From positions 8,929,340-8,993,339 of the forward strand of contig JABAKD010000023.1 of NCBI GenBank assembly GCA_012845835.1: a DNA stretch of 64,000 nt. The letters are read 5' to 3'. The DNA comes from Undaria pinnatifida. Its lineage: Eukaryota; Sar; Phaeophyceae; Laminariales; Alariaceae. The notes below the pieces were generated by a model. It did no database searches. It worked only from the letters and a program-made list of their open reading frames with translations, and had not been told where the DNA came from. The position numbers and the translations under genes were made by a program. This document shows, one piece after another, positions 707 to 44,507 of this stretch (within the stretch, counting starts at the first letter, position 1; each line of letters opens with the position of its first letter).

Positions 707-3700
707 GTTAATTCAGTTGTTTCCACTTTCATAATTCATAGTAAATTAACAGACGGGAACCGAGTATTTAGAGTACAGGCAGGAAATTTGAACACGAACC
801 CTTCGTTAATGATTGGGAGGGAAATTCAATACACACCTTCGGGAGGCTGTCACGCCTGTCTGGGTAGGGAAAATCATGCTACGTCTAACATGTACCAGAG
901 TATCTTCTATCCATGTCCGGGTTAGTCAAGGTGTTGTACGTTTGAAACGATATAGACAGTGAGCGGGTGGTTACGAGAGCTCTTTACGCGCTATGATCGA
1001 CTACAATGTTTTGTGCTTAGTGATTCCACGATCGCGTGTGTCTGCAGGAATCTACTGTACAGTCACCTCCGTGGGAAAATTATTACAGAGTACTCGAACG
1101 TGCGCAGTGCGTATCGAAGATCGTGGACCGTGAAAACACGCTGCCAAAACGAGTTTTTTTTTCATCATTTTGAAGTTCCCTTTTTTACATGTAGTTCCTT
1201 CCCTTTTCTCAAGCGAAGCATCTGTGTTTGTCTTCCCAAAGCCAAACCTTCTGACACAACAAAATCCTCCCGCCCTTTCTTCCCATGCACGGGCACTACG
1301 TCATCCTTAAACCCTCTTCAAATTTGTCGACAGCTCCACGCCGTTGTCGCCACCGTTCAGAGCGGGTTCCTTGCCGGAATCCCAACCACCATGGTGGAGG
1401 CCATCGCCCCCTCCCTCGAGGCCATCGACAACGCCGTCACCCAGCACCCCAAGGTTGGTTGTTTTGATCTACACGGTATCATAATCTCGGGGCCTAACAA
1501 GAATTTGTTTTGGGAGATAAACGTGCGGGTGATACTTTCAGAGGGAGACATTTCCATCCCAACAACCGCATTTCCATGCCAACAACCGCGGCAGCCGACG
1601 TCGCGCCCGCGTTTCCCGGCTATCGACAGCGCCGTAGTCCAACGCCCCGAGGCTGGCTGTGTCGACACACACGGTATCACTATGTCGGAGCCTCGCATGA
1701 TTGGTTGGGGGAGAAACATGAGGGTGACCTAGTTATGCTAACAGAGGTGTGAAGGGGAGAGACATTTCCATCCCGAAAACCGCGGTAGCCGACGTCGTGC
1801 CCGCCTTTTGAGGCCATCGACAACGCCGTAATCCGACACCCCAAGATAGTTATGTCGACCCACATGGTATCATGGTGTCGAGGCCGCGCGCGGGTGCTCG
1901 GGAGAGATACGTGACACGGTGATGGCGTTACACTTGCGGAGGTACGAGAGAGGCATTTCCATGCGGAAAACTGTGGTAGCGAACACTTTCCTCGCCTTTG
2001 ACCCCTTTAGAGCCCTTAAAGCCGCTCCCTCTACAGAATACTTCAAGTAATTTTGTCCCAAACTGGGGTTCCCATCTGCGAAGGAGTCAAGGCCATCTCG
2101 ACAACGTCGTCATCCCGAACCCCCAAAGACCAACGACGCGTGCTACGACAGAGGGGTCCACCGCTTCTTGTCTGGGGTTCCTCAATTTCGGGAGCTTAAG
2201 ACCCCTCCCGAAAAATGATATGAAAGAAAATAATACTGCCACCTGATGAAAATACCATGGCCTGGATACACAACAAGACCCATGCCCAAAAAAATGGACA
2301 TTTTCCGACGATTTTGGGTTAAGGAGCCCCGCCTTTCGTAAACCATTTCACACGAAAATTGATACCTCTATCGTAGCATGCGTCCAATGCTACGGTAAAG
2401 GAAGGGGGGGGGGTGGATTACCCCCTCTTGGCCACTTTTTTTTCGGTTGCTCGGTGTCGCTTGCGCGAGGGCCCCCCACTGTCCCTTCGACGGATCACAA
2501 GCTTTCGCTCTGCAGTTTTGACATTCTCGAACACTCATACGAAAAGAGGCGGTTAGCCGCGAGCGGGCTGCAACAAAAAGTATCCCCGAACGTGTTTTTG
2601 TCAGTGAGGTGCAGAGTCCCGCGCGCGAGTATGATGTGGTATGATGTGGTATGATGTGGTATGATGTGGTACGATGTGGGACACTCAGACCAGGTAGTGA
2701 AAATTGTGGGTACCTCGCTGCCGTAGCCTTGATCCAAAATACGTTTCACACCAGGCGCCAGTCTCGGCCAGCCGGGTATATGACCAATAGAGTCGCTAGT
2801 ACAATGAGACTTATGTCGTACCTAAGGCATGCACGGTACGCTTCGAAGCTATCAATGCCCGCGTCATCCGCCCTCGAGGTCAGTTTTGAACCCTTGTGTC
2901 CAGTCTCGGGCCGGTAAGATGTACGTGGAGCTGGCGTAAAACATGCCGTACTAAGGGATGCCAGATATCGACACTGAAACCGCCTTACGCAGTTTGGAGT
3001 TTGCGTGGAGAAGCAGGAAGGTAAGTTCGTACGCGTTCATCGTTTGGAGAATGCGGTTGTACCCTGCCAAACAGTTCGTACTAGTCAGGCATGTCTTAGA
3101 GCTATTCAACAGTGTTGCGTTATAGTATGTCGGGCCTTGGGCAAGGAATTGCGTAGCTGCCTTTTGGTGTACCTGGCCAGAGTGACTTGGTTGTAAGTCT
3201 GTCCGTAGGTATGGCTTGGCTGCTTCGCTGTCTTAATGTCAATACCGGTTGTAGTGTCTGAGCGGGAAGTCGTCTGGCTACTGGACTCCTCAGCAAGGTG
3301 TTACCCCCGCCCTCAGTTGCCGTGGCTTGTCTGCTTCGCCGTCTACAAGTCAATATCAGCTATAGGATGTCGTGGGGCTACTTGATTTTTCAGCAAGGCA
3401 TTACCCCCGCTCTCCACACAACACACAGAGAGAAACCACTTTCCTGTACGTGGTATGTCAGTGTTTCGCCTCGCCCACCGCCATCCCCCCACGCACTCAC
3501 CTCGTATCTTGGGCGTCGTATTTCCAGTGTCTCCCTCATCACTCTCCTTTGAGGAATATTGTCACTCTGGTGTTTCGCCCCCCCCCCTCCTCAGCACGCT
3601 CGAACACTCTTGAGTGATATAGCACGTGTCTCCTGGGTTGGATATGTGCCACAACTATCCTGCACAACATACCTTTACGACTGATGTAGGAGTTTTGATG

Positions 3701-4985
3701 TTATCGAGATGGTGATCTATCCGGGGTGTAACAGCTTGTCCCACACTGTTTCCATGCAAGGTGCCTTTCTAAAGGAACACAGCATTTTCCTCAATCCATC
3801 TCCGCCACACCCTCCCTGTTGCGTTACTGGTGCCGACCGTACTACGTTTCTGCCTCTGAAGCGTGGTACAATAAAGGCGCACCACGTTTTTCTGAGGTTC
3901 CTCCGTGTAAGAGCTTAAGACATGTCCTTCTTAACCCGAAAATGACTGATTCGGAGAAAAACAAAACGGCCCACCGGATGGAAAATCCCATCGCCTAGGT
4001 ACACGACGAGAATCATGCAAAACAAATAACCTATTTTCGACGATTTTGGGCTAAGGAGCGCCGCCATCCAGAAACCTTTTCGGACGGAAATCGCTACCTC
4101 TATCGTAGCACGCGTCCAACCCCAAGCCGTGTCTATCCCACACATGTCATATACAGTTTATCTCCAATGTAGCTAGTAGTGCATCATTATGGGGGGCATG
4201 AGCTATCCTTATCATCCATATCTCTACAACTCCCTCCGTGTCAACCTTGCTGGCGAAGGCGTACGGACGCATGTGGAGGTGGAGGTGCACTAGTTGTCTT
4301 CAGAAGGCCCTCACTCAACGATATATGTCCCGTCAATCCAAAGTCGGTTTACGTACAGATATCCTTTTTAAGTGACGAAACCCATTTTCGAACAATAATT
4401 GTCTTTCGAGGGTTAACCCCATGGACAAGGCATACAGCCGAAAACACACATGTGGGCCATATCTGCAAAAAAGAGAACGGACGCATGCATAGCTAGAGGG
4501 AGCAGTTTTCGTCCGAAATGGTTTTTGAACGACTGGGCTCGTTATCCCGAGATCGTCGGAAATGGGAAAACTTTTTTTTTGCACGATTATCGTTGCGCAC
4601 CTAGGCCATAAGAATTTTGATCCGGTCGCAGTTTGTATTTTCCCGAAATCAGTCTTTGGGAAAAGGTCATAAGCTCCCAAACCGAGGAACCTCAGAAAAG
4701 GAGTGGTGCACCTCTATTGTAGCACGCGTCAACGGAATTGCTCTCAAATGTTCGGTTAAGGAGCCCCGTCGTTCAGAACTCGTTTCAGCAAAAACGTGCT
4801 GGCTGCTATCGTAGGACGCGTCTACGACCGACGCTTCGAGAGCTATCTCACTCATATTCCAAGTTGTTTGATCCCCCCAAGCGACTGGTGATGATGTAAA
4901 GGGAGTTAATGTATACCTGAATATCTCTACAACTCCCTCATTGTGTACCTTGCAGGTGAAGGCGTACTACGCTTCGAAGGAATGA
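578..4985 (+). CDS. Glutathione S-transferase, sigma-like (GST-A), 3' part of gene
   Basis: This is the C-terminal half of a cytosolic GST, which would use glutathione to conjugate electrophiles or reduce peroxides. Three exons are visible: 578-706, 1334-1453 and 4956-4985, all phase 0 with AG and GT borders. They encode 43, 40 and 9 residues followed by TGA. The first holds the GST C-domain signature FCVGNSLTIADLQ (N-capping box, S/T-x-A-D). The second is an alpha-helical segment starting LHAVVATV, and the last is VKAYYASKE. Exon lengths of 129 and 120 bp match GST-B exactly; by eye 32 of 43 and 31 of 40 residues agree. The N-terminal glutathione-binding exons should lie left of the window. 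The 3.5-kb last intron carries tandem partial exon copies and MITEs. The gene looks intact as far as visible, but transcription is not shown. Confidence 0.85.
1334..1453 (+). CDS. GST-A exon equivalent to GST-B exon 5
   Basis: It encodes LHAVVATVQSGFLAGIPTT through NAVTQHPK. The acceptor is cgacag and the donor AAG/gttggt. The length of 120 bp is the same as GST-B exon 5. Confidence 0.87.
1371..2135 (+). repeat. Tandem duplication of exon-5 tail plus intron, about 190-200 bp per unit
   Basis: The end of GST-A exon 5 and about 110 bp of following intron recur as diverged tandem units. Relics of the reading GCCATCGACAACGCCGT...CACCCCAAG appear near 1620-1660, 1813-1845 and 2090-2125. Linking stretches such as GACATTTCCATCCC recur at about 1549, 1760 and 1953. 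The copies lost the donor GT or carry substitutions, so they are non-coding relics. The last unit is split by an 85-bp TTAA-type element (2002-2086). Confidence 0.7.
2002..2086 (+). mobile_element. piggyBac-like mini-element (TTAA family) copy
   Basis: This 85-bp copy begins CCCCTTTAGAGCCC and ends TGCGAAGGAG. It interrupts the fourth relic of GST-A exon 5: TTTGA stands on the left and TCAAGGCCATC continues on the right. The flanking four bases TTGA and TCAA fit a decayed TTAA target duplication. Confidence 0.55.
2136..2384 (+). mobile_element. MITE-1 copy (family reference description)
   Basis: MITE-1 is a non-autonomous inverted-repeat element of about 250-310 bp with no coding capacity. 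The left end reads ACGCGTGCTACGATAGAGGT, then GCACCAC and a T-run. Next come CTGAGGTTCCTCAATTTGG, GAGCTTAAGACCTCTCCC, CTACCGGATGAAAAATCCC and ATGGCCTAGGTACAC. The right half reads GAGAATCATGCAAAA, CCGACGATTTTGGGTTAAGG, AGCCCCGTCATTCAGAAACC and the inverted end ACCTCTATCGTAGCACGCGT. This copy contains all blocks, with substitutions. It lies in the GST-A last intron. No transposase is visible, so the superfamily is not assigned. Confidence 0.85.
2408..2725 (+). mobile_element. MITE-2 copy (CACTCGCGCGAGTG family) with short inner repeat
   Basis: It begins GGGGGGTGGATTACCCCC and continues with a T-run and TTGCGCGAGG. Near its right end it holds about five GTATGATGTG units (2629-2676) before CTCAGACCAGGTAGTG. 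The same order is seen at 51455-51872, where the inner repeat is much longer. Both are followed by GTAGCCTTGATC, so the homology extends at least that far. Confidence 0.6.
3859..4115 (+). mobile_element. MITE-1 copy
   Basis: The left end is degenerate (GCGTGGTACAATAAAGGCGC) and the right end good (CTCTATCGTAGCACGCGT). Middle blocks are present, including ACGATTTTGGGCTAAGGAGC. Confidence 0.8.
4201..4280 (+). pseudogene. Broken duplicate of the GST-A last exon and its acceptor
   Basis: The stretch ATATCTCTACAACTCCCTC, then CCTTGCTGGCGAAGGCGTACG, copies the acceptor region of the true last exon at 4918-4970. In this copy the acceptor CAG/GTGAAG has become CTGGCGAAG and the reading after AKAY is lost, so it should not splice. 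Confidence 0.6.
4481..4729 (-). mobile_element. MITE-1 copy, inverted
   Basis: Inverted copy with ends ACGCATGCATAGCTAGAGGG and CCTCTATTGTAGCACGCGT. Core blocks in reverse complement are clear, for example GAGATCGTCGGAAA and CACCTAGGCCATAAG. Confidence 0.8.
4755..4829 (+). mobile_element. MITE-1 right-end fragment
   Basis: Only the last third of the element is present: GGTTAAGGAGCCCCGTCGTTC through CTATCGTAGGACGCGTC. It abuts the inverted copy that ends at 4729. Confidence 0.65.
4956..4985 (+). CDS. GST-A last exon
   Basis: It follows the acceptor CTTGCAG and encodes VKAYYASKE then TGA. It corresponds to GST-B exon 6 (VKAYYDSIKA). The terminal VKAYY pattern is typical of the end of algal sigma-like GSTs. 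Confidence 0.8.
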   Translation: MKAYYASKE

Positions 4986-10082: not shown

Positions 10083-10945
10083 ACCGGCGACATCAAGGTC
10101 GGTGACCTCCTGAAGAAGGCAGGCTACCACTTGCTCGATATACATCCCGCATTCCATTCCCACAGTGCCAAGAGGGCGTTCGACATCGAGGTACGTTCTA
10201 CTCTTATCTTGCCTCCTGTGTGTCACGAGTCGAGATATCCATGTCTCTTGCTCAAGACTAGGGGATAGCGTGCGGATATAGTCTATGAAGTGCGGCTCTT
10301 CTTCCAAGTACCAAGAGCAAGTACAACAATACCACAACAATTACTAACAACGAAAGAAGGAGCTCCAATAGTTTGGATGGTTACGACGTCTGCTGGAGAG
10401 AAGTACGAATACTTTTTTACACATACATACTTATCGACGTCCTCCCGCTATGCTTCAACGTTTGCGGACAGATTCACAAGATCATCGACAAAAAACAAGA
10501 GCGCAAGGTGCTGGGTACCTCCGCTGAGGAGGAGTCCAAGCAAGCCTGCATGCTCCTTCGGAAGCAATGTTGACAGCACATTCTTTATAGAACGTTGAGT
10601 TGTGGTTTCTATATACCAGCATCGTTTTTTGAGCACTATGCCTAAATGCATGCTCTTCGTCCTTCGGAATACAAATGTAGTTCACATGTTTGCGGTGTGT
10701 GCGTTCAAGTTCCTGCTTTCAGCATGTTTTTTTTGGCACTGCGCTCCTTTACATCTTGAGTTGTAGTTTTCCTGTCTCTGCCCTTGACAAGCGCGTGTCT
10801 GGTGTTTATGCACTGCGATAATTTAGTTTTGATGATCGACTTAGAGAGAGCTACTAATAAGTGTACAGGTGCTACCTGAGAGGTGGAAGGATATGCCAAG
10901 CAAGTCCTCCGACGTGCCCATCATGGACTGGGCGAATGGATGATA
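10083..10945 (+). other. Possible exons of an unrecognised gene
   Basis: Three stretches look like codons but cannot be named. At 10083-10191 a frame reads DIKVGDLLKKAGYHLLDIH, then a possible donor GAG/gtacgt. At about 10466-10573 a frame after CGGACAG reads IHKIIDKKQERKVLGTSAEE and ends in TGA. At 10869-10945 a frame reads VLPERWKDMPSKSSDVPIMD then a stop. A stop or frame break precedes the first stretch, and the pieces do not join into one phase-consistent model by eye. The GYHLLDIH segment has a loose rhodanese-like look, which I regard as weak. Confidence 0.25.
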
Positions 10946-19701: not shown

Positions 19702-20312
19702 CCATAGAACGACACGCTTTCATAAATATATATAAAATCATTCCTTGAATATCGAGTCATTCCTTGGTGTTATGGACTTTGGTCAGGAGTTTTTTGTCTC
19801 GGCCTAAGTATGCGATTCGCGGAACTGGAATTCTGGGTCGAATATGGCTTGGTTCGAGCGCCGCCTTCGGGGGGCGGCTCCAACGCCCCTCGCCCTGCCG
19901 TGTCCGTTCCGGACATCGACGTGAACACGGACAGGTGCCGAGCGAGACGAGCGAGTGTCGAGGAGGAATTTTGGAAAAAATGTTGAATCTTACTGGCTGC
20001 AACGCCTGAATGATTTACAAAATTGGCATCATTTCCAAACGGTACGTGATAATGTTTGGAATTTTGCGGTGGCATACTCTCGAGCGTTAGTTTCTTTGCT
20101 GTACTTTTTTACTAGTTCGTTTGGTTTCTTGCTCGGCATTTTATTGCTTTTGTTTCTGCTCGTTTTGCCAGCTGGAAATTCTATTTTTTAGTGTGGGTTC
20201 ACCTAAAACGTGACACAACTTACCGACGATATCCAACAACTTCGTGACACAAATTACCGACGGCAAGACGTTTCGTGACAAAATAACTCCCAAATCATTA
20301 TACTTTCACGGA

Positions 20313-21235
20313 ACAGAATTTCGAGACAAAATCAAGCAGGTAGAGCCGTCTCTTTGGCCTTTGGCCCTGGCTTTAGCACGGCCGCTGACACTCCAGGCAG
20401 CCTCTGCTGTCGGCATGAACGAATGCGGTTGATTCGCAGCGAACTATCCCGCTGTGCTTGCTTCTATGTGGCCATTGTCCATGCCATTTCATGTCACCTC
20501 CCTTCTGTTTTGAGCTCGTCGTCGTCCGGTTGAGGTACGAGGAAACCCGTACGTACTCGGTGAGAACAGCAGTATGTACGACGAGCATGATCGCCAATTG
20601 ACGACATTGGCAAGCACAAAACAGCAGGTGTAGCAGCAGTAGCCGAAGGGCGAAACGTCTAGCACATAATGCAGCAACTAGTAGCAACCAGAACAACAGC
20701 AGATAGCTCAAAGTGCAGTGCGAGTGCCGTTGGCAAGTTTAGTCGTACACGCATCACTCTGTCCAATATATATAACAGAATCTCGAGACAAAACCAAGCA
20801 GGTAGAAGAGCCGTCTCTTCGGCCTTTGGCCCTGGCTTTAGCACGGCCGCTGACACCCCAGCCAGCCTCTGCTGTAGGCATGAACGAGTGCGGTTGATTC
20901 GCAGCGAACTATCCCGCTGTGCTCGCTTCTATATGTGGCCATTGTCCATGCTATTTCATGTCACGTCCCTTCTATTTTGAGCTCGTCGTCGTACGGTCGA
21001 GGTACGAGGAAACCCGCACGTACTCGGTGAGAACAGCAGTATGTACGACGAGCATGAACGCCAACTGACGACATTGGCAAACACACAACAGCAGGTGTAC
21101 AGCAGTAGCCGAAGGGCGAAACGTCTAGCACATAATGCAGCAACAAGTAGCAACCAGAACTACAGCAGATAGCTCAAAGTGCAGTGCGAGTGCCGTTCGT
21201 TGGCAAGTTTAGTCGTACACGCATCGCTCTCAAGA
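20313..21235 (+). repeat. Recent direct tandem duplication, unit about 460 bp
   Basis: The segment 20313-20760 (GAGACAAAATCAAGCAGGTA, GCCTTTGGCCCTGGC, TTCATGTCAC, CGAAGGGCGAAACGTC, GCAGATAGCTCAAAGTGCAG) is repeated at 20775-21235 in the same order with few changes. The offset is 462-468 bp. Frames in the two copies shift relative to each other through small indels, which argues against a conserved protein. Confidence 0.85.
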
Positions 21236-31900: not shown

Positions 31901-34900
31901 CGATCGCGGAAAGTCAGATACTACAAGGAAGCCTGAAAATTGACGAATCTGTCAAGAAAGATAAGCTCCTTCCTGCTTGCCGACTTCCGGCTTAATTAGC
32001 CCTTGGTGGGCCACTGCCGAAACGTCTGAGCGATTATTTGCAAGTTGTTCGTGCCCGTGAATGCGCGCACAGTTCTAAAGGAGCTTGCCGCGACCTACTC
32101 CCCGTTTGTACCCATTCCTTGCTCCAACTTCTCCACCACGTCGTACAGATCACCCCGGTCCCCACTCGATGATCTAGATATTGCAGGAAAGATCTGTACG
32201 GTGAAGCTCATGCTACCGGATGGGAGCGGTACGATCCGCACCATCTAGCTGATGCTTCCAGAGGGTTGTATCTGTACCCAACACGCATATGTATACAGAT
32301 CCTGTGTAACATCTTAGGACGGGGAGATACAGGGTCTACTGCTGTAGATGATCTACATAATCTATATTATCTATATGATCTAGCTCATGATCTGTTGGAG
32401 ATATGTACCGTTTTTGTCAAGACACCATTATAGCTGCTACCTGGTACAACACAGCAGGACATCAAAGAAGAAACGGAAGAACGCACCCAGGCTGGTTCGT
32501 TATGTGGGAGAGGGTGGATACCTCTCTGGTGCAGCTCATGTAATCGGGTGGAAGTCGCGCGATCTGCATGATCTAGCAAATGCATCCAGAGAGTTCGATT
32601 TGTACCCTCTCTTACGTATTGATCCTGCGCAACGTCTTTAGAGCGATAAATACGGGGTCCGCTGTGTAGAGGATCTGCTTCAAAGCATATTGTCTGAATG
32701 CTCCACATGATCTATATGATCTATATGATATGTATCATCTGCATGATCTATATAAATATATGTAATCTATATGATCTATGTGATATATGATCTACACGAT
32801 TTAGATGATCTAAATGATACATAAGATACATATGATACATATTATCTATATATGATCTGCATGATCTGTATGATCTATATGATTTTTATTATCTATATGA
32901 TCTATACGAACTGTATGATCTATAGATATCATCTAGATTATCTATATGATCTACATCATCTATTCAATCTGTACGATCTAGATTATCTATATGATCTGTA
33001 GGATCCGTATAATCGATATGATCTGTATGATCTATATAATCGATATCATCAATATCATATATATCATTTGCGTGATCTACTTGTTCTATATGATCTGTAT
33101 ATGATATATGTTACCTGCATGATGATCTATACGATCTATATGATCTATACTGATCTATATGATATGTATGATCTGTATGGTCTATATATAATATATAATC
33201 TGTATGATCTGCATGATGTGTATGATCTGTATGACCTGTATGATCTGAACATGATGATATGTTCAAGGTGGGGACCGTTCCTATCTAGACACCGTTTTAT
33301 CTTCTACGTTACAACAGGACACCGAGAAGAGAAACGGACCACTTAGTTACCTTATGTGGTTGGTGGGATCCTTATGTGGGACAGGGTGCGTGCAACTGTG
33401 TAACCGCTCCCATTTTTTTTCTTTTTCCCCCGTTTTTAATTTTTATTTTAATTTTTTTTTTTTCACACACATCTACTTTCCATCTTCTGAAGAAGCCGTG
33501 GTCACAGGTGTCGTCGCTTTTCCCCCCCGGTTCTTGCCTTCAATTTTTTATCGCGCTTAGGGTTCAGCGGTTCCACTGCTCGTCGTTTTTCATCAAGTAA
33601 GTGTTGGTCACTCACGCTCTCGCGCTTTCCGCAAGTGAATTTGTGCACGAGAAAAAATCCCCCCGAGTTTATACGAGTATGCACTCGGGGAAATTTGAAC
33701 TTACGACACTGACCTATACTAGGCTCGAGGATAACCTGATACGCCACCGGGGCGACCGGCTCACTATCTCAGCATGGCCTTCTCACTCTACTACCCTGGC
33801 CTGGCCTGTACTGTTTGCTGTTTTGTTTGTTTTTTCTGCCAGGTGGACGAAATTGTGATGATCGCGGAGGATGTTTTCATCAGCCTCTTCTCCACCGCTG
33901 CAGAGAAGAGCGAGGCCAAGAAGGTGAACCATGGTACTCGTATATACCAGCAACACGGTCGCGGTAGCGGTAGTGGGAACGGTAATAAAACCGGTATCGG
34001 TAACCGGTAACGGAACAGGTAACGGTGTACCGATAACGTTTTGGACAGTGGTATCGATGAGCATGGTGAGCTGTCCCACGCGCAAGGGGCGCAGAGCAGA
34101 GGTTTCCGAGCTCCCGACACGAGGAGTTCCAATACATCGCCCGCTAAAAAGCAAGATTTCTCGAACGCGTTCGTCGCGCAAAACCGACGGCGAGCAAGGC
34201 TCTCTACCGGTACGCTCTAGCCTTTGAAACAAAACTGGCGTCGTAAAATCGTCATGCTAACCGATGGTGGAACCGCGCTTGAGGAGCTTAACCTGTAACA
34301 AACATTTGCCGCAAAAAAATGCGACCCCTGCTGTGGAGGTGGTTCTGGTAGTGATATTGGAGGGATGTGTACGTTAACCTCGCATTTGGCGCTGGAGAGA
34401 ACGATGAGGCCTAGAGGGCGAGCTACGCGCAGATGGTTCCTTTTGAAGGGGCCACAATGTGCGTCGAGGCGGCTGCTGCTGTGGATCCCTTGTATACCGA
34501 CGTATCTCCGTAACAGAGTTGGTCGCTCTTGATATTTCTAGTCAGTTGGTGCAGTGTTTTTCAAGAGCGGTAGACTGTGCGGTGGTCCCTTGTGTGCGAC
34601 TTGAGGTCCCTTGTTGAGAGCTTTGTCGACTGTTATATTTGAACACGAGGTCTTTTGCTGTGTGGAAAAACACGGCACGGAGAAGCTTGAGATTCCTTAC
34701 ACACGATTTTTCCTAATGGCGAGGTCCATTAAACTGGGCCACCTGCTGCATATCTTTTTAGCGGTACTTATCGATGACGGTAACGGTATCGGTAACGGTG
34801 TCGGTATCGGTAACAGTATTGGTGACGGTAACGGTAACGGTGACGGTAACGGTATCGGTAACGGTGACGGTAACGGTGACGGTGACGGTGACGGTGATGG

Positions 34901-35493
34901 TGATGGTACTAGTAACGGTATCGGTAACGGTAACGGTATCGGTAACGGTAACGGTAACGGTGTCGGTGACGGTGTCGGTAGCGGTAACGGTAACGGTGAC
35001 GGTGACGGTATCGGTATCGGTAACGGTAACGGTAACGGCAACGGTGAAGGTGACGTAACGGTAACGGTAACGGTGACGGTGACGGTAACGGTAACGGTGA
35101 CGGTAACGGTGACGGTGACTGTGATGGTGATGGTACTAGTAATGGTATCGGTAACGGTAACGGTAACGGTGAAGGTAACGGTAACGGTAACGGTGACGGT
35201 GACGGTGATGGTGATGGTACCAGTAACGGTAGCGGTCACGGTAACGGTATCGGTAACGATAACGGCAACGGTAACGGTAACGGTGATGGTGACGGTGATG
35301 GTGATGGTACCAGTAACGGTAGCGGTAACGGTAACGGTATCGGTGACGGTAACGGTAACCCCCGCCGGGCTTATACTACCAAAACGTAAGCGATACTTCT
35401 CCCGTACCTTTCGGTGCTTTCTCCTCCTCCCAATCCATGCCTTCTGGCCTTGGGACGAAACTTCGCACGTTTCTGCTTGCTAACAAAACCGAT

Positions 35494-38500: not shown

Positions 38501-41500
38501 CCGTCCTTCAGAGGCCATTTCAGACTTACGAAAACTGCTACCTCTTTCGTAGCCAGAGTCCCGATCAAATTTAAAACCCCGTGGCCCTAGGTATACGACG
38601 AGAAGGAATATTTTTTGACATTTGAATGGAATTCCCTCGGCGATTTTTGTTCCCCATCCACTCGGTCTCTGCCCCCTCTCCCGCGGTATGCTGCGCGGAT
38701 ACTGTCTCGTCAAGGCGAACCACGCGGCGTTATCTCTACGCCTGCTACTGCTACTACAGCTACGGCATCAGAGGTGGTTTCAAGAGACTCGCTTGAAGAG
38801 CCCAATACCTCTCTCACCCAAAAATTGACTTTTGGAAATACAAGGTATTCGCGACTTCCAAAATGTTTAGAGTCGGAAAATACACACGGTTAAAATACAG
38901 CAGTGTTAAACAGCCAGTGCTATTTTACGGAGGGCTATATGTAGCAAACAGAACGCACGATGAACGCAAAACCTTACACACTTTATTTACACTCTGTTTT
39001 ATTCTTACTATATATGCCCAAATTTGGCCTTGTTTGCTGTGTGTCCCCATAAAATTGAACGAAACCAGCGAACGTCGTACTGGTCGAAGTCCAACCGATC
39101 CACGGAAAGCTCCGGTAAATATCTTCAGGCCTTTTACGGGTCGGATAAGGCAATCGCTTCAGTTTCAGCGGATCCCAAAATAGCAATTCAAGAATAACTA
39201 CTCCTAAAGCTGTCGCGAGATGTGTTGTATGGCCACCTAAAAGTGCCACCTCTAAATCATTCCCAGCTGTAGGAGTGCAGCAGAATCTTCTGAGCTGCTG
39301 ACAGGAGGGCATTCGTTGGCGCAACCCGACCAGCAGACAGACCCATGCTACGATACGGAGGTGCGCCATTTTTTTGTTTTGTTCAAGGTTCCTCAATTTG
39401 GGTGCTTGATACCTCCCAAAAAAAAACTTTATTTGGAGAAAACTAGTTAAAACTGCTATTAAATATTGCCATACGTACCGGATGAAACAATCCCATCTTG
39501 TAGCCTAGGTACACCACGAGAATAATGCGAAAAAAAAAATGCCCATTTTTTGTTTTTTTTTTCCGGCGATGTTGGGTTAAGGGAGCCCCGCCATTCAGAA
39601 AAAAAAATCACACGAAAAAGTGCTATTAAAATATATACCTCTATCCTAGCACGCGTTGTTTTTTTGCTGGAATATGCGCTGGTCCAACAAAAACAAGCTA
39701 TAGTCGTGAGACTATGAGTACTACTGAGTATTAACAACCGAGCGTTTCACACCGAAGGATCTCAACCGGTCAGCAACGTTTGGCGCCAATAGTGCCACCG
39801 GAAAACGCCACATCGCAGCGTTCATAGCACGCGCGTCCCTCTGAGTGCGTGCGTGCGTGCGTGCGTGCGTATGTGCGTGCGTGCGTGCGTGCGTGTGTGC
39901 GTGCGTGCGTGCGTGTGTGCGTGCGTGCGTGCGTCCGTTCGCTCTGCCCACATCTTTGTTTTCCCCCCTCTCCCCCCCCCTCATGTTGTGTGCGGCTACG
40001 GGAATGTGTTGTCCCCCGCCCTTCCGTTTGTGTGACTGACCAGCTCCACGCCGTGGTGGCCACCGTGGAAATGGGTTTCCTTGCGGGCATTCCCCCGCAC
40101 ATGGTGGAGGACATGGCCCCCTCCCTCAAAGCCATCGATAACGCCGTCATGGAACACCCCAAGGTGAGGCGTGCTACGATAGAGTTATTAAGGTATACCT
40201 CTTTTTGGCGTGCTACGATAGAGGCATTAAGATGTGCGTCTTTTCGGCGTGCTACGATAGAGTAATTAATATATACATCTTTGTGGCGTGTTACGATAAA
40301 GGTATTAAGGTATACCTCTTTTTGGCGTGCTACGATATAGTTATTAAAGTATACCTCTTTTTGGCGTGCTACGATAGAGATATCAAGGCATACCTCTTTT
40401 TGCCGTCCTACGATAGAGTCATTAAGGTATACCTCTGTTTGGCGTGCTACGATAGAGGTATCAAGGTGTGCCTCTTTTTGGCGTGCTACGATAGAGTTAT
40501 TAAGGTATACCTCTTTTCGGCGTGCTACGATAGAAGTATTAAGCCAACCTCTTTTTGCCGTGCTACCTTAGATTTATTGAAGTATATCTCTTTTTGGTGT
40601 GCTACGATAATGGTGTTAGAAGGTATACCTCTTTTTGGCGTGCTACGATAGAGTTATTAAACCTCTTTTTGGCGTGGTACGATAGAGTTTTCAAGGTATA
40701 CCTCTTTTTGGCGTGCTACGATAGAGGTATCAAGATATACCTCTTTTTGGCGTGCTACGATAGAGGTATTAAGGTGCACCTCTTTTTGGCTGAAATGGTT
40801 TCTGAATGAAGGGGCTCCTTGACCCAAAAGGTCTGAAAAACGGTAAAATATAATTCTTCTGCATGATTCTCGTCGTGTACCTCGGCCATGGGATTTTTTA
40901 TGTTTTTTGCTATCAGGTAGCCTTTTTTTGTTTTTCTCGAAAACGGTTTTTGGGAGAGGTCTTAAGCTCCCAAATTGAGGAAATCTCAGAAAAAAAAGTC
41001 GTGCTTCGCCTCTATCGTAGCCCGCGTCAGGTACAATGTACGTATATGTGCGTCTTTGGACTCTGCATTAGTCTCGGGTGCCTCGATAGATACGTAGGGA
41101 AAGGAAGTGTTTTGTAGGAGAAAAAAATGGAAGACGTGGGTGAAAGGAAACGGGGAAGTGGTTGACAAAACGTCATGAATACTATTAATACTGATTTATT
41201 ATACATTGAGAAGACGCGGGCCTAATAAATGGGCAAGCCTTAATATATTTGGGTGGGGACACAGAGTGTCCCCTGCAGGTCTGCCTGTTGAGCAGGTCCT
41301 CGGTGAGTACTCGCTTTCTTAGCCTTGGTAGAGAAGCAGCTCCGTTGTTTCCACAGAGCCTCGGATAGCAGTAGCTCAAGAGCCGAGGCGCATCCCTCGG
41401 TTAATTTTCCTGACTACTACCCCTAATAGATAACCCAAAAACATATCAAACGAAAACGGTCGGCTGTGAAGGTCCTACCGAGGTGGATACTTTCTGGTTT

Positions 41501-44500
41501 TTGAAAGGATATACGTATACCACTTTACGTCGGACCGGCATCTATCCACGCCACATTGTCGGAGGGCAAAATATGGCAACGGTTGCTATTATAGAAGCAT
41601 CGTTTTTGTTTTTTTTCGGACGGGACTCCTTAATCCAGAGATCGTCGGAAAAACGCCTCTTTTTTTTTTGGTGGTATTTCACACAATATTTTTTGTCCCC
41701 CTCAAAAGTGGGTTTTAGAGTTTCCGCGCGCAGACTGACGAACATCAGCCCTGTTGACCCTGATAGCTACACTGCTGTAGTTGCAAGGGGAGTCGCCGAC
41801 CTATATCCTTGATGAGGACACACAACCCGTAATACGCGCGATCGGAGTATCACACACAGCTTGCATAGATGAGTTTCGACAAAATCTTCCATCTCACAGC
41901 TGGAGTGTGTTTTACTCTTGAAAATATATAGTGGTATAACTATCCAATGGGTCTTTTTTGCTCATCGGGTTTTATACTCAGTTGAATCGGAGGTACAGCT
42001 AGCTAGTTTTCTTTCGATGAGGTGTAGAGAGCTCCTGAAGCCGCCGTCCCTTCGTCCCGTCGCAAGGTGATGGCGGTGTCGCCTGATGTCGCCTGTACCG
42101 TCGCGTGCGTTTAGGGTGAGCTCAGGGTCGACGAATACATCGGGCCATGACGCTCCCTTACGATGGAGATATACCTCGTATACCCTCTTTTGTCTTGTTC
42201 GTTTCTGAAGTACCCTTTTTTGTCTCGTTGACCCAAAAATCGTCGGAAATTTTCGAGGTCATTTTTCTTTTTGCCAGATTGCCTTTTTTATCGGGTGGCA
42301 GCAGTTTTTGATTTTTCTCCAAATCAGTTTTCGGGTTAAGACATGTCTTTACCTCCAAAACTGCGGAACCTCAGATACAAGGTGGTTCACCTTTATCGGA
42401 TTATACGCAGTTTTGCGTGAGGGTCGATTTTATGTGGGATGAGTCAGTTCTTGAACATAGACAGCGTGTATTGGCGTGAAGCTGGTTTACACCACGCCGA
42501 TGGTGGACGACGTCGCCCCCTCCCTCGAGGCCGCCGTCGATAACGCCGTCATGGCACGAACCGGGGGACATTTTGATTTAACACATATATATGTATATAT
42601 TAATTTTTGGTCCTCCGTAAAAGTCCTTTTGGAGTGGGTCCACGTTTTGGGAACAAACTGCTTATAACTACTTGTAGTGCGGGATTGTGTATTCAGTTCT
42701 ACAACCTTTTTTTTTTCTTCTTCTTGCGCGTTTTCAGCGCTGAAAAACGAGCCGTTCTTATTCTGATGTTAAGATACGGCCTCGAAAAAGTTAGGAAGTA
42801 GATCGGAGGCACGCGCCTCCGATCTCAGAAGCTATCCCGGGCTCTGGTGCAAACGAATTTAAAGCTATATCTCTACGAAGGAACGAAAGTGAGTACTCTC
42901 CGAGGACCTGCTCAATTGGCGGACCTGCAGGGGGCACTCTGTGTCCCCCACCTTTAATTTAACACTGAGCATATAGGGGAGCTCACAAGCTTACCCCGAA
43001 GGGATGAGTTCGAAAAGTCGCATTCATTCGTTCGCGCAATCCGAACAATTTTTTTTATTGCGCTGGTCCTAACAAAAAAATGTACTCCGTTGAAAAAAAA
43101 TTATGCCTGGAGTATCAACTACGGATTAGTAAATAACCGATGATGGCGCAACCCGACCAACATTTTCTGTGCGCCACGAGTAGCTCCAGAAACAAGCACG
43201 TGGTGTACTCGCAAAGGTATGATGACGAATGCTACGATAGAGGTATAAACATTGTATACCACGCTTTTCGTATGAAAAAATGTGTTTTCTGAATGACGAG
43301 GGGTCCTTAACCCAAAATCGTCGGAAAAAATATAAATAATAGGCCATATTTTTTTGTTTTTGCGTGATGTTTCTCGTTTCTTGTGCCGAGCTAGCTCGCT
43401 AGCTAGCTCACTCGCTAGCTAGGCGATGAGATTTTCAATCCGGTGGTATATATACGGTGCATTTTTTTCTTCTTCTTCTCAAAATCTGTCTCATTGGGGA
43501 GGAGGTCTTAAGCTCCCAAAATTAAGGAAGAATCCCAGAGGAAAAAAAAAAATAACGTGTTGCACCTCTATCGTCGCGCGCGTCGTATACTATTACTAGC
43601 ATATAACTCCCCAGGGGCGAGGAGCTGAACCGGTCAGAAACGTGCTCGGACGCGTGCTACGATCAAGTTGGCACTCTTCGCCTGAAAAGGTTTTTTTTTT
43701 AATGACGGAGATACTCAACAACCCAAGATCGTCGCAAAAAGGGCCATTTTTTTGTTTTTTTTTTGCACGATTCTCGTGGCGTACCTAGGCCATGGAATGT
43801 TTCACCCGGTGTGGCGTCAGACATATTATATATATATATATATATATATATTTGGCTCCAAGTATAAATCCGTTTTTTGGGGTTTAAGACATGTCTTTAT
43901 CCCCCAGATTGAGGAAACCCCAGAAAAAAAAAAAAAGAAAGGTGGTGCACCGCTATCATAGCACGCGTCTTCGAAAGAAAAATTCAACTCCCACCGTCGG
44001 CATGCGGGATGAAACAAACGTCACGCACAATGTTTCCTGAGGTCTGCCCTGTTGTCACCATGCCCACACCCCCTCGTAACCCCTCCCGCCCTTTTTCGCG
44101 GCCTGTGACAACCAGTGAAAAGCCGTTCTACGGTCCCGTGGCCGTGCGTGTCGAAACAGCCCCAAACGCACGCCCTCGTCTCTCCGTCTCTCCTCCCTCC
44201 CCCCTCCGCCGGACCCCCGTCCCCCGTCCCTCTCTTCCCCCTGCTGTCAATGATGTCGGTTGACGGCACTCTTGACTTTCGACGGACGGCCGTCAAGGAC
44301 CGCCTCGCTCCACACTAAAACCAATGTATTACGTCTAAAGAGGCCTTGACGTGACAAAACTAGACCGCCAACCGATATATTCGCCTGCTATCCCTCCCTC
44401 CCCGCCTCGCCCTATCCCCTCATTTCTCCATGTTACGTGTTGTTGTTTATATTCAAAACGCTGATGCTTTTCAGGTGAAGGCATACTACGATTCGATCAA

Positions 44501-44507
44501 GGCTTGA
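28599..44507 (+). CDS. Glutathione S-transferase, sigma-like (GST-B), complete six-exon gene
   Basis: The cytosolic-type GST fold would bind glutathione in the N-terminal thioredoxin-like domain and electrophiles in the helical C-domain. Exons: 28599-28919, 29593-29688, 33843-33923, 36011-36139, 40044-40163 and 44475-44507, all phase 0 with GT-AG introns of about 0.7, 4.2, 2.1, 3.9 and 4.3 kb. From the ATG at 28761 the protein has 205 residues, the usual size. Y10 sits at the catalytic Tyr position before PGRGEATR, P50 at the cis-Pro, Q61-S62 at the glutamyl-binding pair, and FCVGDSLTIADL at the C-domain signature. An in-frame ATG at 28599 adds 54 residues beginning MLKKLNLLFSAVALFC, which look like a signal peptide followed by a poly-Thr stretch. 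Which start is used decides a secretory or plastid versus a cytosolic location. The introns carry pseudo-exons, MITEs, a SINE and satellites. Confidence 0.9.
29593..29688 (+). CDS. GST-B exon 2
   Basis: It encodes 32 residues from MDGTDYTQSLALLIYAGK to YPDDPLTALK. The acceptor is TTTTTAACAG and the donor AAG/gtgggg. The TQSLALL segment is the glutathione-binding strand-turn-helix. Confidence 0.88.
29829..29997 (+). repeat. (TTTCC)n pentanucleotide array in GST-B intron 2
   Basis: About 33 almost perfect units with one CCG interruption near the end. Its Lys-Glu-Arg-Gly and Phe-Leu-Ser open frames are artefacts. Confidence 0.97.
30085..30170 (+). mobile_element. piggyBac-like mini-element copy
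   Basis: It is bounded by TTAG on both sides (30081-30084 and 30171-30174), consistent with a TTAA-like target duplication. Inside are CCTGCCTATACTAAACCC and ACGGGTTTCCCATTTGTC. Confidence 0.55.
30190..30530 (+). mobile_element. tRNA-derived SINE, second head type
   Basis: The head contains a box B-like GGTTCGAATCTTGC after CATCAATAGTGCA. Four copies of GTGATCGTNGGGAGCAC follow (about 30280-30350). The 3' domain AAGGCACGTACC, G-run, GAGAGAAGAAG and CCCGTGACCACG matches the shared SINE tail. It lies in GST-B intron 2. Confidence 0.55.
30935..31005 (-). mobile_element. MITE-1 fragment, inverted
   Basis: TTTCTGAAGGATGTGGGG, CTCCTTAACCC and AATCGTCGGAAAA only. Just upstream a 37-bp segment with CGAGGAAGCGCTTC is repeated twice (30866-30945). 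Confidence 0.6.
31071..31430 (+). mobile_element. MITE-1 copy carrying a nested element
   Basis: It runs from ACGCGTGCCACGATGGATAG to CCTCTATCGTAGAATGCGTC. At the TTAA inside the conserved GGGTTAAGGAGC block a separate 81-bp element (31278-31358) is inserted. After it the MITE-1 sequence resumes (GGGACCCCGCCCGCCATTC). Confidence 0.85.
31278..31358 (+). mobile_element. piggyBac-like mini-element, reference copy with TTAA duplication
   Basis: An 81-bp element begins CCCCTTTAGAGCCC and ends GGTGAAGGGG, with TTAA on each side (31274-31277 and 31359-31362). The empty site is known from other MITE-1 copies, which have a single TTAA there. TTAA duplication with a CCC start is the hallmark of the piggyBac superfamily. 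The terminal inverted repeat is very short (CCCCTT). Confidence 0.8.
31450..31545 (-). repeat. LTA repeat, type 1, inverted
   Basis: On the minus strand AAGTACCAACAACGCAGC, then an ATG at 31522 and a frame MSIDLKFVELTADVLEICLQ that stays open into the neighbouring MITE-1. Confidence 0.6.
31879..31959 (+). pseudogene. Degenerate copy of GST-B exon 3 in intron 2
   Basis: After an intact acceptor (TTCGCCAG) a frame of the same length as exon 3 reads VDHIVVMTIAESQ to DESVKK, against VDEIVMIAED to SEAKK in the real exon. Nucleotide identity is clear for the first 30 bases with a 3-base insertion, then fades. The donor GT is lost (AAGAAAGATAAG), so it should not be spliced normally. Confidence 0.5.
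32193..33365 (+). repeat. ATGATCTATAT satellite with duplicated flanks
   Basis: The core (about 32690-33255, with a smaller block at 32340-32390) is built of TATATGATCTGTATGATC-type words, giving dozens of GATC sites. The non-satellite flank is repeated: 32193-32355 resembles 32518-32675, and 32397-32510 resembles 33260-33370 (shared GACACCG/GACACCATT, ACAACAGGACA, AGAAGAAACGGA, TTATGTGG). It lies wholly in GST-B intron 2. Confidence 0.8.
33450..33759 (-). mobile_element. tRNA-derived SINE, copy 3, inverted, with poly-A
   Basis: Same order as copy 2: the head (GCCGGTCGCCCCGGTGGCG on the minus strand) ends at 33759. The 3' domain and TGTGACCACGGCTTC lie near 33500, with an A-run at 33450-33463 (seen as T). 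It ends 84 bp before GST-B exon 3. Confidence 0.78.
33843..33923 (+). CDS. GST-B exon 3
   Basis: It encodes VDEIVMIAEDVFISLF through EKSEAKK, 27 residues. The acceptor is TTCTGCCAG and the donor AAG/gtgaac. It matches GST-C exon 62677-62757 in length and start. Confidence 0.87.
34770..35362 (+). repeat. GGTAAC/GGTGAC hexamer array in GST-B intron 3
   Basis: About 95 hexamers of the form GGT(A/G)(A/T)C fill nearly 600 bp. A smaller related patch lies at 33960-34040. Because six is a multiple of three, all frames stay open (Asn-Gly-Asp-Gly or Val-Thr). I do not take the 290-codon frame as a gene. Confidence 0.92.
35488..35537 (+). repeat. (AAC)n microsatellite
   Basis: About 15 ACA/AAC units. 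Confidence 0.95.
35560..35690 (+). repeat. TTTGAC-type imperfect repeat
   Basis: TTTGACTTTTGACG words grade into TTTGATTTTTGATTTTTAC. The T-rich intron sequence continues to about 35900. Confidence 0.8.
36011..36139 (+). CDS. GST-B exon 4
   Basis: It encodes IEKSKALMAGKLKTLLGDIE through FCVGDSLTIADLQ (43 residues). The acceptor is ATCGGCAG and the donor CAG/gttggt. It contains the C-domain N-capping signature. Confidence 0.88.
36245..36432 (+). mobile_element. MITE-1 copy, right part lost
   Basis: It runs from GCATACGGTAGAGGTGCGCG to GGCGGATTTTCGACTCGG. It starts about 105 bp after GST-B exon 4. Confidence 0.72.
37335..37575 (+). mobile_element. MITE-2 copy, partial
   Basis: GGGTCACTCGCGCGAGTGCC, TCCCCCAGTTCCTTACGG and, at the far side, GGGTTCACTCGGGCGGGCAG. 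The middle is unlike other copies. Confidence 0.45.
37676..37749 (+). mobile_element. piggyBac-like mini-element copy
   Basis: CCCCTTTGGATCC, CCCTATACTAACTTCAAG and GCGCTTCCAGTAGCGAAGGC, followed by TTAA (37750-37753). The left flank is TGAA. Confidence 0.6.
37843..38079 (+). mobile_element. MITE-1 copy, right end lost
   Basis: It runs from ACGCGTGCTACGCTAGAGGT to AAGGAGCCCCGTCATACAG. All blocks between are present. Confidence 0.82.
38297..38556 (+). mobile_element. MITE-1 copy, left end lost
   Basis: It starts at GGGTGCCACCACTTTTC and ends TGCTACCTCTTTCGTAGCC. GATTTTGCGTTAAGGAGC is readable. Confidence 0.8.
39343..39656 (+). mobile_element. MITE-1 copy
   Basis: It runs from CATGCTACGATACGGAGGTG to CCTCTATCCTAGCACGCGT. 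It has enlarged A- and T-runs. Confidence 0.85.
39844..39935 (+). repeat. (GTGC)n tetranucleotide array
   Basis: About 22 GTGC units with occasional GTAT and GTGT. It ends 109 bp before GST-B exon 5. Cys-Val-Arg and Thr-His-Ala-Arg open frames are artefacts. Confidence 0.95.
40044..40163 (+). CDS. GST-B exon 5
   Basis: It encodes LHAVVATVEMGFLAGIPPHM through NAVMEHPK (40 residues). The acceptor is GACCAG and the donor AAG/gtgagg. The 39-bp MITE-end array starts a few bases into the intron. Confidence 0.9.
40167..40790 (+). repeat. 39-bp tandem array made from MITE-1 ends
   Basis: About 16 units of the form GGCGTGCTACGATAGAG, then TTATTAAGGTATACCTC and TTTTT. Unit starts (GTGCTAC) lie at 40171, 40210, 40250, 40289 and so on to 40752. 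The unit equals the outer end of MITE-1 as seen in inverted copies (for example 24070-24105). The array runs straight into the inverted MITE-1 at 40790. Since 39 is a multiple of three, a frame with the 13-residue period ACYDRGIKVYLFL stays open; I read it as an artefact. Confidence 0.92.
40790..41028 (-). mobile_element. MITE-1 copy, inverted, end amplified
   Basis: GAAATGGTTTCTGAATGAAG through GATTCTCGTCGTGTACCTCG to CCTCTATCGTAGCCCGCGTC. Its outer left end is replaced by the 39-bp array. Confidence 0.85.
41250..41420 (+). repeat. Inverted-repeat partner 1 with terminal hairpin
   Basis: GGGGACACAGAGTGTCCCC, TGCAGGTCTGCC, GAGCAGGTCCTCGG and GAGTACTCGCTTTC recur in reverse complement at 42795-42960. 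It ends with a hairpin (CCGAGGCGCATCCCTCGG). Confidence 0.65.
41575..41700 (-). mobile_element. MITE-1 fragment, inverted
   Basis: CTATTATAGAAGCATCG, GGACGGGACTCCTTAATCC and GAGATCGTCGGAAAAAC. The remainder is missing. Confidence 0.5.
41851..41931 (+). repeat. LTA repeat, type 2
   Basis: ATCACACACAGCTTGCATAG, then an ATG at 41869 with the frame MSFDKIFHLTAGVCFTLENI and a stop. Confidence 0.6.
42150..42409 (-). mobile_element. MITE-1 copy, inverted
   Basis: CTTACGATGGAGATATACC to TGGTTCACCTTTATCGGATT. GACCCAAAAATCGTCGGAAA and CTGCGGAACCTCAG are readable; the ends are decayed. Confidence 0.7.
42494..42562 (+). pseudogene. Partial copy of GST exon 5 in GST-B intron 5
   Basis: A frame reads TPMVDDVAPSLEAAVDNAVM, matching residues 17-36 of exon 5 (MVEDMAPSLKAIDNAVM). 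It lacks the first half, the acceptor and the HPK/gt donor. It is a relic of exon duplication. Confidence 0.65.
42795..42960 (-). repeat. Inverted-repeat partner 2 with terminal hairpin
   Basis: Reverse complement of 41250-41420 (GGACCTGCAGGGGGCAC, GAGTACTCTCCGAGGACC). It carries a perfect hairpin, AGATCGGAGGC and its complement around ACGC (42800-42825). Confidence 0.65.
43224..43583 (-). mobile_element. MITE-1 copy, inverted, enlarged
   Basis: GAATGCTACGATAGAGGTAT to CACCTCTATCGTCGCGCGCG. It contains an inserted AGCTAGCT-rich patch (43388-43425). Confidence 0.8.
43650..43968 (-). mobile_element. MITE-1 copy, inverted
   Basis: ACGCGTGCTACGATCAAGTT to CCGCTATCATAGCACGCGTC. It has a (TA)n run at 43826-43852. 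Confidence 0.85.
44475..44507 (+). CDS. GST-B exon 6 (last)
   Basis: After the acceptor GCTTTTCAG it encodes VKAYYDSIKA and TGA. Confidence 0.85.
   Translation: MKAYYDSIKA

Follow-up and report, generated by a model that had tools for sequence, protein, structure and literature searches.

The 39-bp tandem array at the splice donor of a GST-like gene belongs to a single transposon copy. Positions 40166-41028 of the 64,000-nucleotide stretch of Undaria pinnatifida DNA analyzed here (the window, C30:8929340-8993339) are one MITE-1 element with a multiplied end B, located inside its own target duplication. As the most probable origin (about 0.6), we propose from sequence comparisons that a MITE inserted at the AGGT of an existing intron of the GST-like gene, and that its left 39 bp were then duplicated via microhomology, grew to 16 units, and decayed. 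The genome searched for related copies comprised 511,146,479 bp in 68 contigs. The features of the locus are listed below in window coordinates, with a slash marking splice sites.

40044..40163, + strand: GST-like exon (exon 5), ending ...HPK in AAG; tblastn in the window, 77.5% identical to the paralogue at 1334-1453
40162..40165, + strand: left target duplication AGGT, which is the junction AG/GT; 4/4 match with 41029-41032, family-wide 4-bp duplication
40164..44474, + strand: predicted intron holding the element, 4,311 bp; found at this position in the paralogue too (1454-4955), and the joined exons align with GST_C_3 over the junction at scores below the cut-off
40166..41028, + strand: whole element, MITE-1 with multiplied left end; limits, family model, and target duplication
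40166..40785, + strand: array built of 16 end-B units, each about 39 bp long, the last of them the MITE's own end; unit cutting and Tandem Repeats Finder
40750..41028, + strand: complete MITE-1 copy (last unit, body, and right end); family model
41010..41028, - strand: right terminal inverted repeat, GACGCGGGCTACGATAGAG on the - strand; end pairing
41029..41032, + strand: AGGT, right copy of the target duplication, reading GTCAG/GT together with the end of the MITE; 4/4 match
44475..44507, + strand: predicted last GST-like exon, VKAYYDSIKA and stop; pattern scan, paralogue VKAYYASKE and stop at 4956

The MITE-1 element and the GST-like gene

MITE-1 is a non-autonomous MITE family with ends GACGCGTGCTACGATAGAG and a 4-bp target duplication. 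Ends were paired in the window and 30 loci, with 17 overlapping ones dropped beforehand, and the 25 clean pairs delimited short elements of 250-391 bp with terminal inverted repeats. The copy number is high, with 6,596 genomic occurrences of the exact end 14-mer GTGCTACGATAGAG against 0 of its reversed pattern. When end positions and duplication lengths were scanned, GAC...GTC with a duplication of fixed length, 4 bp directly outside, stood out (65% matching bases vs 26% for mispaired ends), and perfect duplications were found in 6 of the 25 copies, where 0.3 would be expected and 200 shuffles gave no more than 3. The family model has 268 positions and was built from 16 window copies, with a mean pairwise identity of 69% on that alignment. 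The terminal repeat differs between the ends, with end A reading GTGCACC... and then GGTTCCTCAATTTGGGAG, and end B reading GTA... and then CTGAATGACGGGGCTCCTTAACCC. The literature searches made on terminal-inverted-repeat transposons of kelp or Undaria and on MITEs of brown algae yielded, judged by titles, no account of this family.

At the GST-like donor, Tandem Repeats Finder, run on the 64-kb window, reported a period of 39 at 40168-40790 (16.1 copies, 81% matches, score 808), and cutting at the terminal repeat gave 16 units, with 12 of 15 spacings at 39 bp and the others at 38, 41, and 34. These values agree with the approximately 16 units of 39 bp given in a preliminary description of this DNA, and the terminal repeat of MITE-1 together with its subterminal sequence, reported there for each unit, was found in all 16. 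Chance was rejected as an explanation: across 511 Mb, the exact 17-mer GGCGTGCTACGATAGAG was counted 164 times and its reversed pattern 0 times. The last unit and the body (40750-41028) cover model positions 4-268 of 268 with 206.9 bits, indicating that the 16th unit is the MITE's own left end and that the MITE is complete. The proposal that the transposon end itself had been amplified is supported. A complete MITE continues the array in register. The same description had the array run into an inverted MITE whose outer end is missing, but that end is present as the first unit, which starts at 40166 beside the AGGT duplication, reads GAG followed by GCGTGCTACGATAGAG, and forms the outer end of the whole element.

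The AGGT copies at 40162-40165 and 41029-41032 are identical at 4/4 bases, an agreement expected by chance in 1 of 256 cases, and all 16 copies of the end lie between this one pair. As described earlier, the array begins three bases downstream of the donor GT, which lies at 40164-40165. The relation of the element to the donor is closer than proximity: the donor is the target duplication itself. The target AGGT is the exon-intron junction, which places the start of the MITE at intron base +3 and makes its first bases, GAG, donor positions +3 to +5. Self-insertion was rejected for this locus, where the right end is followed by AGGTACAATG instead of MITE interior and the inner 4-mer agrees at 1/4 bases. 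Identity between units is independent of their distance (0.82 at lag 1, 0.85 at lag 8, mean 0.83), suggesting that the array expanded quickly and then decayed without homogenization. No sign of constraint on the units was seen on inspection.

The predicted gene structure rests on the paralogue and on Pfam matches below the cut-off. When the exon pairs of the gene and its paralogue are joined, they match the C-terminal part of Pfam GST_C_3, to its end, with 16.3 and 15.4 bits (curated cut-off, 21.6), and no GST was found in PDB with this gene's joined last two exons. The candidate last exon, joined as 40163/44475, is directly preceded by TTTTCAG; the pattern scan gave one further match, at 10883, which was left unused. 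An open reading frame at 28395-29016 matches GST_N with 20.0 bits (cut-off, 20.9) and has weak GST matches in PDB (best E 0.0059); it may be part of the GST-like gene. Since the paralogue has an intron at the same position, the predicted 4.3-kb intron is older than the MITE insertion.

With an AG/GT kept ahead of the element by the duplication, splicing of the gene probably starts at that first copy, AAG/GTGAGG. The general donor consensus is nearer, by eye, to this present donor than to the displaced one, AAG/GTACAA, which may have decayed since the insertion. Selection for the GAG ending, which provides G at donor position +5, was considered and found unsupported: GAG was present in 8 of about 100 ends listed, all on contig C1, and is thus a common variant. 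The end at the GST-like donor is the only GAG ending among the 14 ends preceded by AGGT.

Several side observations concern the same genes. Partial extra copies of exon 5 lie behind the paralogue's exon at 1607-1651 and 1798-1845 (region 1334-1845), and another is located within the intron of the GST-like gene at 42500-42553 (MVDDVAPSLEAAVDNAVM).

Tandem ends in the genome and routes to their formation

Pairs of the exact end 14-mer 26-54 bp apart gave 40 matches, compared with about 1.2 pairs expected by chance; grouping placed them in 23 loci, all of which were read, and the requirement for exact words makes this count a lower bound. Six further clusters came from the word CGATAGAGGTATTAAGGTATACC: among 100 listed of its 227 places, 24 fell into 6 clusters (same strand, neighbors within 250 bp), that is, 6 of 82 loci, a rate that is not strictly comparable with that of the exact pairs because the allowed spacing differs. 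Two of these six clusters were read. With three additional loci (L050, L058, and L060), the total was 32 loci, 28 of them read; L059 was read as well, is not an array, and lies outside the 32, and L001-L008 are known as pattern matches only. In scoring ends, 4 mismatches in 16 were tolerated, and 5 in the case of L058-L060.

At least three tandem ends were present in 22 of the 28 loci read and two ends in the other 6, so further MITE-1 copies with tandem ends exist in the same genome. The preliminary description would have been contradicted by 39-bp arrays recurring in many places without a MITE beside them. Such a pattern was not found: MITE body sequence adjoins the innermost unit in 21 of the 22 arrays, and the remaining array, L060, reaches the edge of the stretch read, where no body is visible. 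The usual unit lengths range from 28 to 81 bp and the junctions differ among the loci, suggesting that most arrays arose separately. End B forms 20 of the 22 arrays (L060 by its subterminal sequence only), end A forms L020, and both are mixed in L047. A form of end B with TATTAAG before GTATACC points to an effect of subfamily: it is common in the arrays, including that at the GST-like donor, and none of the 20 non-array rows among the 25 listed window end pairs has it. In the automatic comparison, a right end was found at 14 array or pair loci; the outer 4-mers agreed at 4/4 bases in two of them (the GST-like donor and L045), at 3/4 in two, and at 2 or fewer in 10. These results suggest that most target duplications flanking entire arrays have decayed or shifted, or are missing.

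Internal 14-mers were also found in tandem, with 10 matches at 4 loci for one word (4,863 exact occurrences) and 11 matches at 2 loci for another (2,219). Per exact word, the 23 loci from 6,596 ends correspond to approximately four times the interior rate (Fisher p 0.003 and 0.06; pooled, 0.001). The end is therefore favored for tandem growth, and the interior is not exempt. Arrays of internal MITE segments lie at C19:10353872-10354041, C23:7068124-7068289, and C34:6907395-6907767.

Two of the other arrays differ in size and apparent age. L060 (C20:2749700-2750700) has at least 29 ends in units of about 31 bp, which fill the 1 kb read, and exceeds the array at the GST-like donor. In L048 (C21:10558400-10561500), most of the central 81-bp units are identical and the outer ones diverged, which is the picture of a young array, probably of recent origin.

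Three routes to tandem ends can be distinguished, namely duplication including host flank, self-insertion, and microhomology inside the element, the last of which is the most likely route at the GST-like donor, judging from the junction. Host flank contained in the unit agrees with the outer flank over 10 bases in L009, 16 in L022 (the limit compared), and 5 in L043. In L045, the unit end equals the outer flank over 6 bases, all that the trimmed flank allowed (12 by eye), with CCAA on both sides, and in L040 the flanks agree by eye over a longer stretch with an indel. Those arrays arose in place after insertion. Self-insertion is seen in L042, where the rest of the first MITE (model 27-268) follows the inserted one, with TTTT on both sides, and in L018, where model 40-268 follows the inserted MITE; here AACG stands on both sides by eye, the automatic comparison gave 2/4, and the last unit has an extra G. 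L026 resembles a self-insertion by eye, but its 4-mers agree at 0/4 bases. The commonest unit starts exactly with GAC, without host flank of 5 or more bases, at 10 of the 26 loci in the automatic comparison (L018, L020, L024, L026, L037, L039, L042, L044, L048, and L049), of which only L018 and L042 are explained, by self-insertion.

Origin of the array at the GST-like donor

The sequence of events that we favor starts with the insertion of a MITE into AGGT at the exon-intron junction of the pre-existing intron; the empty site would be expected to read CCCAAGGTACAATG. The left 39 bp would then have been duplicated by slippage or end-joining at 2-4 bp of microhomology between the terminal repeat (GAC[GC]GTG) and a subterminal stretch (TTTG[GC]TGAAA), and the resulting pair would have grown quickly to 16 units before decaying. 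Joining TTTG[GC]TGAAA to GAC[GC]GTG gives the junction TTTGGCGTG; this is a fit of letters, and microhomology is most likely the mechanism by which the junction formed. Several points count against this explanation. The microhomology is short, being 2 bp with the GST-donor locus's own interior; internal MITE segments form arrays too; outer 4-mers around whole arrays agree fully at just 2 of the 14 loci compared; the exon join depends on the paralogue and on Pfam scores below the cut-off; and two other loci carry the same 39-bp junction, for which a mobile ancestor with a doubled end is at least as simple an explanation.

The idea of such an ancestor, a MITE with an already doubled left end that transposed to several sites, including the GST-like donor, with the arrays growing locally, is possible but rather doubtful. 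The shared junction recurs in L058 (C30:9703.6 kb), an array of 9 units with TTCG on either side by eye. It is also present in an array of 7 units at C52:3314.4 kb, which is probably flanked on either side by AATA (by eye, assuming the loss of one base from the first end) and in which the stretch common to both partners of the junction is GCGT. The body at C52 is the closest to the GST-donor element among 17 compared (0.874), and the variant GATCGAG occurs in both other arrays (2/7 and 3/9 units). However, body identities of 0.874 and 0.850 to the GST-donor element, and of 0.860 between the other two, are barely higher than that of the closest ordinary copy (0.854), and the units of the three 39-bp loci are no closer to each other than to arrays with other unit lengths. 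GATCGAG is found in 0/16 units at the GST-like donor and once in L031, and most of the arrays read have their own junctions. The comparison of unit identity within and between loci proved uninformative.

The element's right border raises a further hypothesis. Positions 41026-41032 read GTCAG/GT, in which the MITE's terminal GTC and AGGT form a candidate 3' splice site abutting the old 5' site. The insertion might thus have created two nested steps, with 40164-41030 (867 bp) removed first and the old intron second, as in recursive splicing or stwintrons, and the transposase might have multiplied the end by cutting at its terminus. Cutting exactly at the terminus is allowed by the GAC junctions at about ten other loci, and we regard this combined scenario as improbable.

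Still less credible is the idea that selection retains the array for a role in splicing or regulation, or to act as a decoy for the transposase. This would be in accord with the position of the array at the donor and with the transposase sites held by terminal repeats of other families, as described for Mutator in PMC3310237. However, the units have decayed to a mean identity of 83%, changes affect the terminal repeat too, other arrays have other units, and AGGT is not enriched as a target, preceding 14 of 4,525 exact ends (0.31%, where a random 4-mer would give 0.39%). Most probably the array has no function, and its extra putative transposase sites would be a by-product.

Creation of the intron by the MITE, as an introner, is very improbable. 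The 4-bp duplication AGGT at the junction does supply the GT, as in some introner families (PMC9860276, as excerpted), but the next exon is 3.4 kb past the element, the paralogue has an intron at the same place, and AGGT lacks enrichment. The intron (40164-44474) and the element (40166-41028) do not coincide, and the 14 AGGT-preceded ends show no AG/GT-like concentration. Finally, the possibility that the array is an error of assembly, or a minisatellite that has nothing to do with the MITE, can be practically dismissed. Tandem arrays are indeed prone to assembly errors, but the units differ by 17% on average, each holds the MITE end, and the complete MITE lies next to the array in register. 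Taken together, the multiplication of ends seems to be an accident that has happened repeatedly within one transposon family.

Relation to known elements and other repeats in the window

The element at the GST-like donor is a tandem-ended MITE combined with an insertion on a donor, and elements with tandem ends are already known. In Xenopus, the Xmix MITE with Xstir repeats (Hikosaka & Kawahara 2004, as cited in PMC9659126) carries tandem repeats derived from the MITE terminal inverted repeat, and this resembles the present case of such repeats riding on a MITE. Going by that secondary description, MITE-1 differs in that unit length and junction vary by locus and that a splice donor carries one of the arrays. 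MULEs with tandem terminal inverted repeats (Ferguson & Jiang 2012, PMC3310237) have an extra tandem copy at the end, inside the target duplication. According to the sections available, their repeats are at least 100 bp long with one extra copy, are mostly at both ends, and move as such, whereas MITE-1 has short ends, as many as 29 copies within the sequence read, and one end affected. Some MULEs are also multi-copy, and mobile, as tandem-ended elements; in MITE-1, two more loci share the junction of the GST-donor array, with bodies not clearly related. In the foldback transposon Tetris of Drosophila virilis (PMC4079207, as excerpted), tandem repeats within the terminal inverted repeats grow to longer arrays; these are 220-bp repeats in long terminal repeats and give a kb-size satellite, in contrast to units of about 39 bp that are the end itself in MITE-1.

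Two further comparisons concern the splice site. Introners with 4-bp duplications, e.g., in Symbiodinium, obtain donor bases with the duplication (PMC9860276, same excerpt) and share with MITE-1 their nature as non-autonomous transposons, the duplication length, and the donor bases from it; here, however, the intron pre-existed and AGGT is not enriched. In stwintrons, as outlined in PMC12403724, an inner intron lies at the 5' donor of an outer one. The possible inner intron here would have the same position, but the old donor downstream of it would remain whole instead of being split between its first and second base.

The available text of PMC3310237 leaves the origin of tandem ends undecided among slippage, recombination, nested insertion, and acquisition. 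Because many MITE-1 loci have their own junctions, the routes can be read from sequence, which addresses that question. In one MITE family of one genome, the emergence of tandem repeats out of transposon ends can be followed through several stages: pairs, decayed arrays like that at the GST-like donor, and the near-homogeneous L048. Additionally, the insertion at AG/GT is a clear candidate for a transposon taking over the donor of an old intron.

The window also contains other repeats. Long simple arrays of ACGGTA (97 copies) and of the 9-bp unit ATGATCTAT (60 copies) occupy 34777-35359 and 32707-33246, respectively, and two 450-bp direct copies with 93% identity lie side by side at 20312-20760 and 20774-21230.
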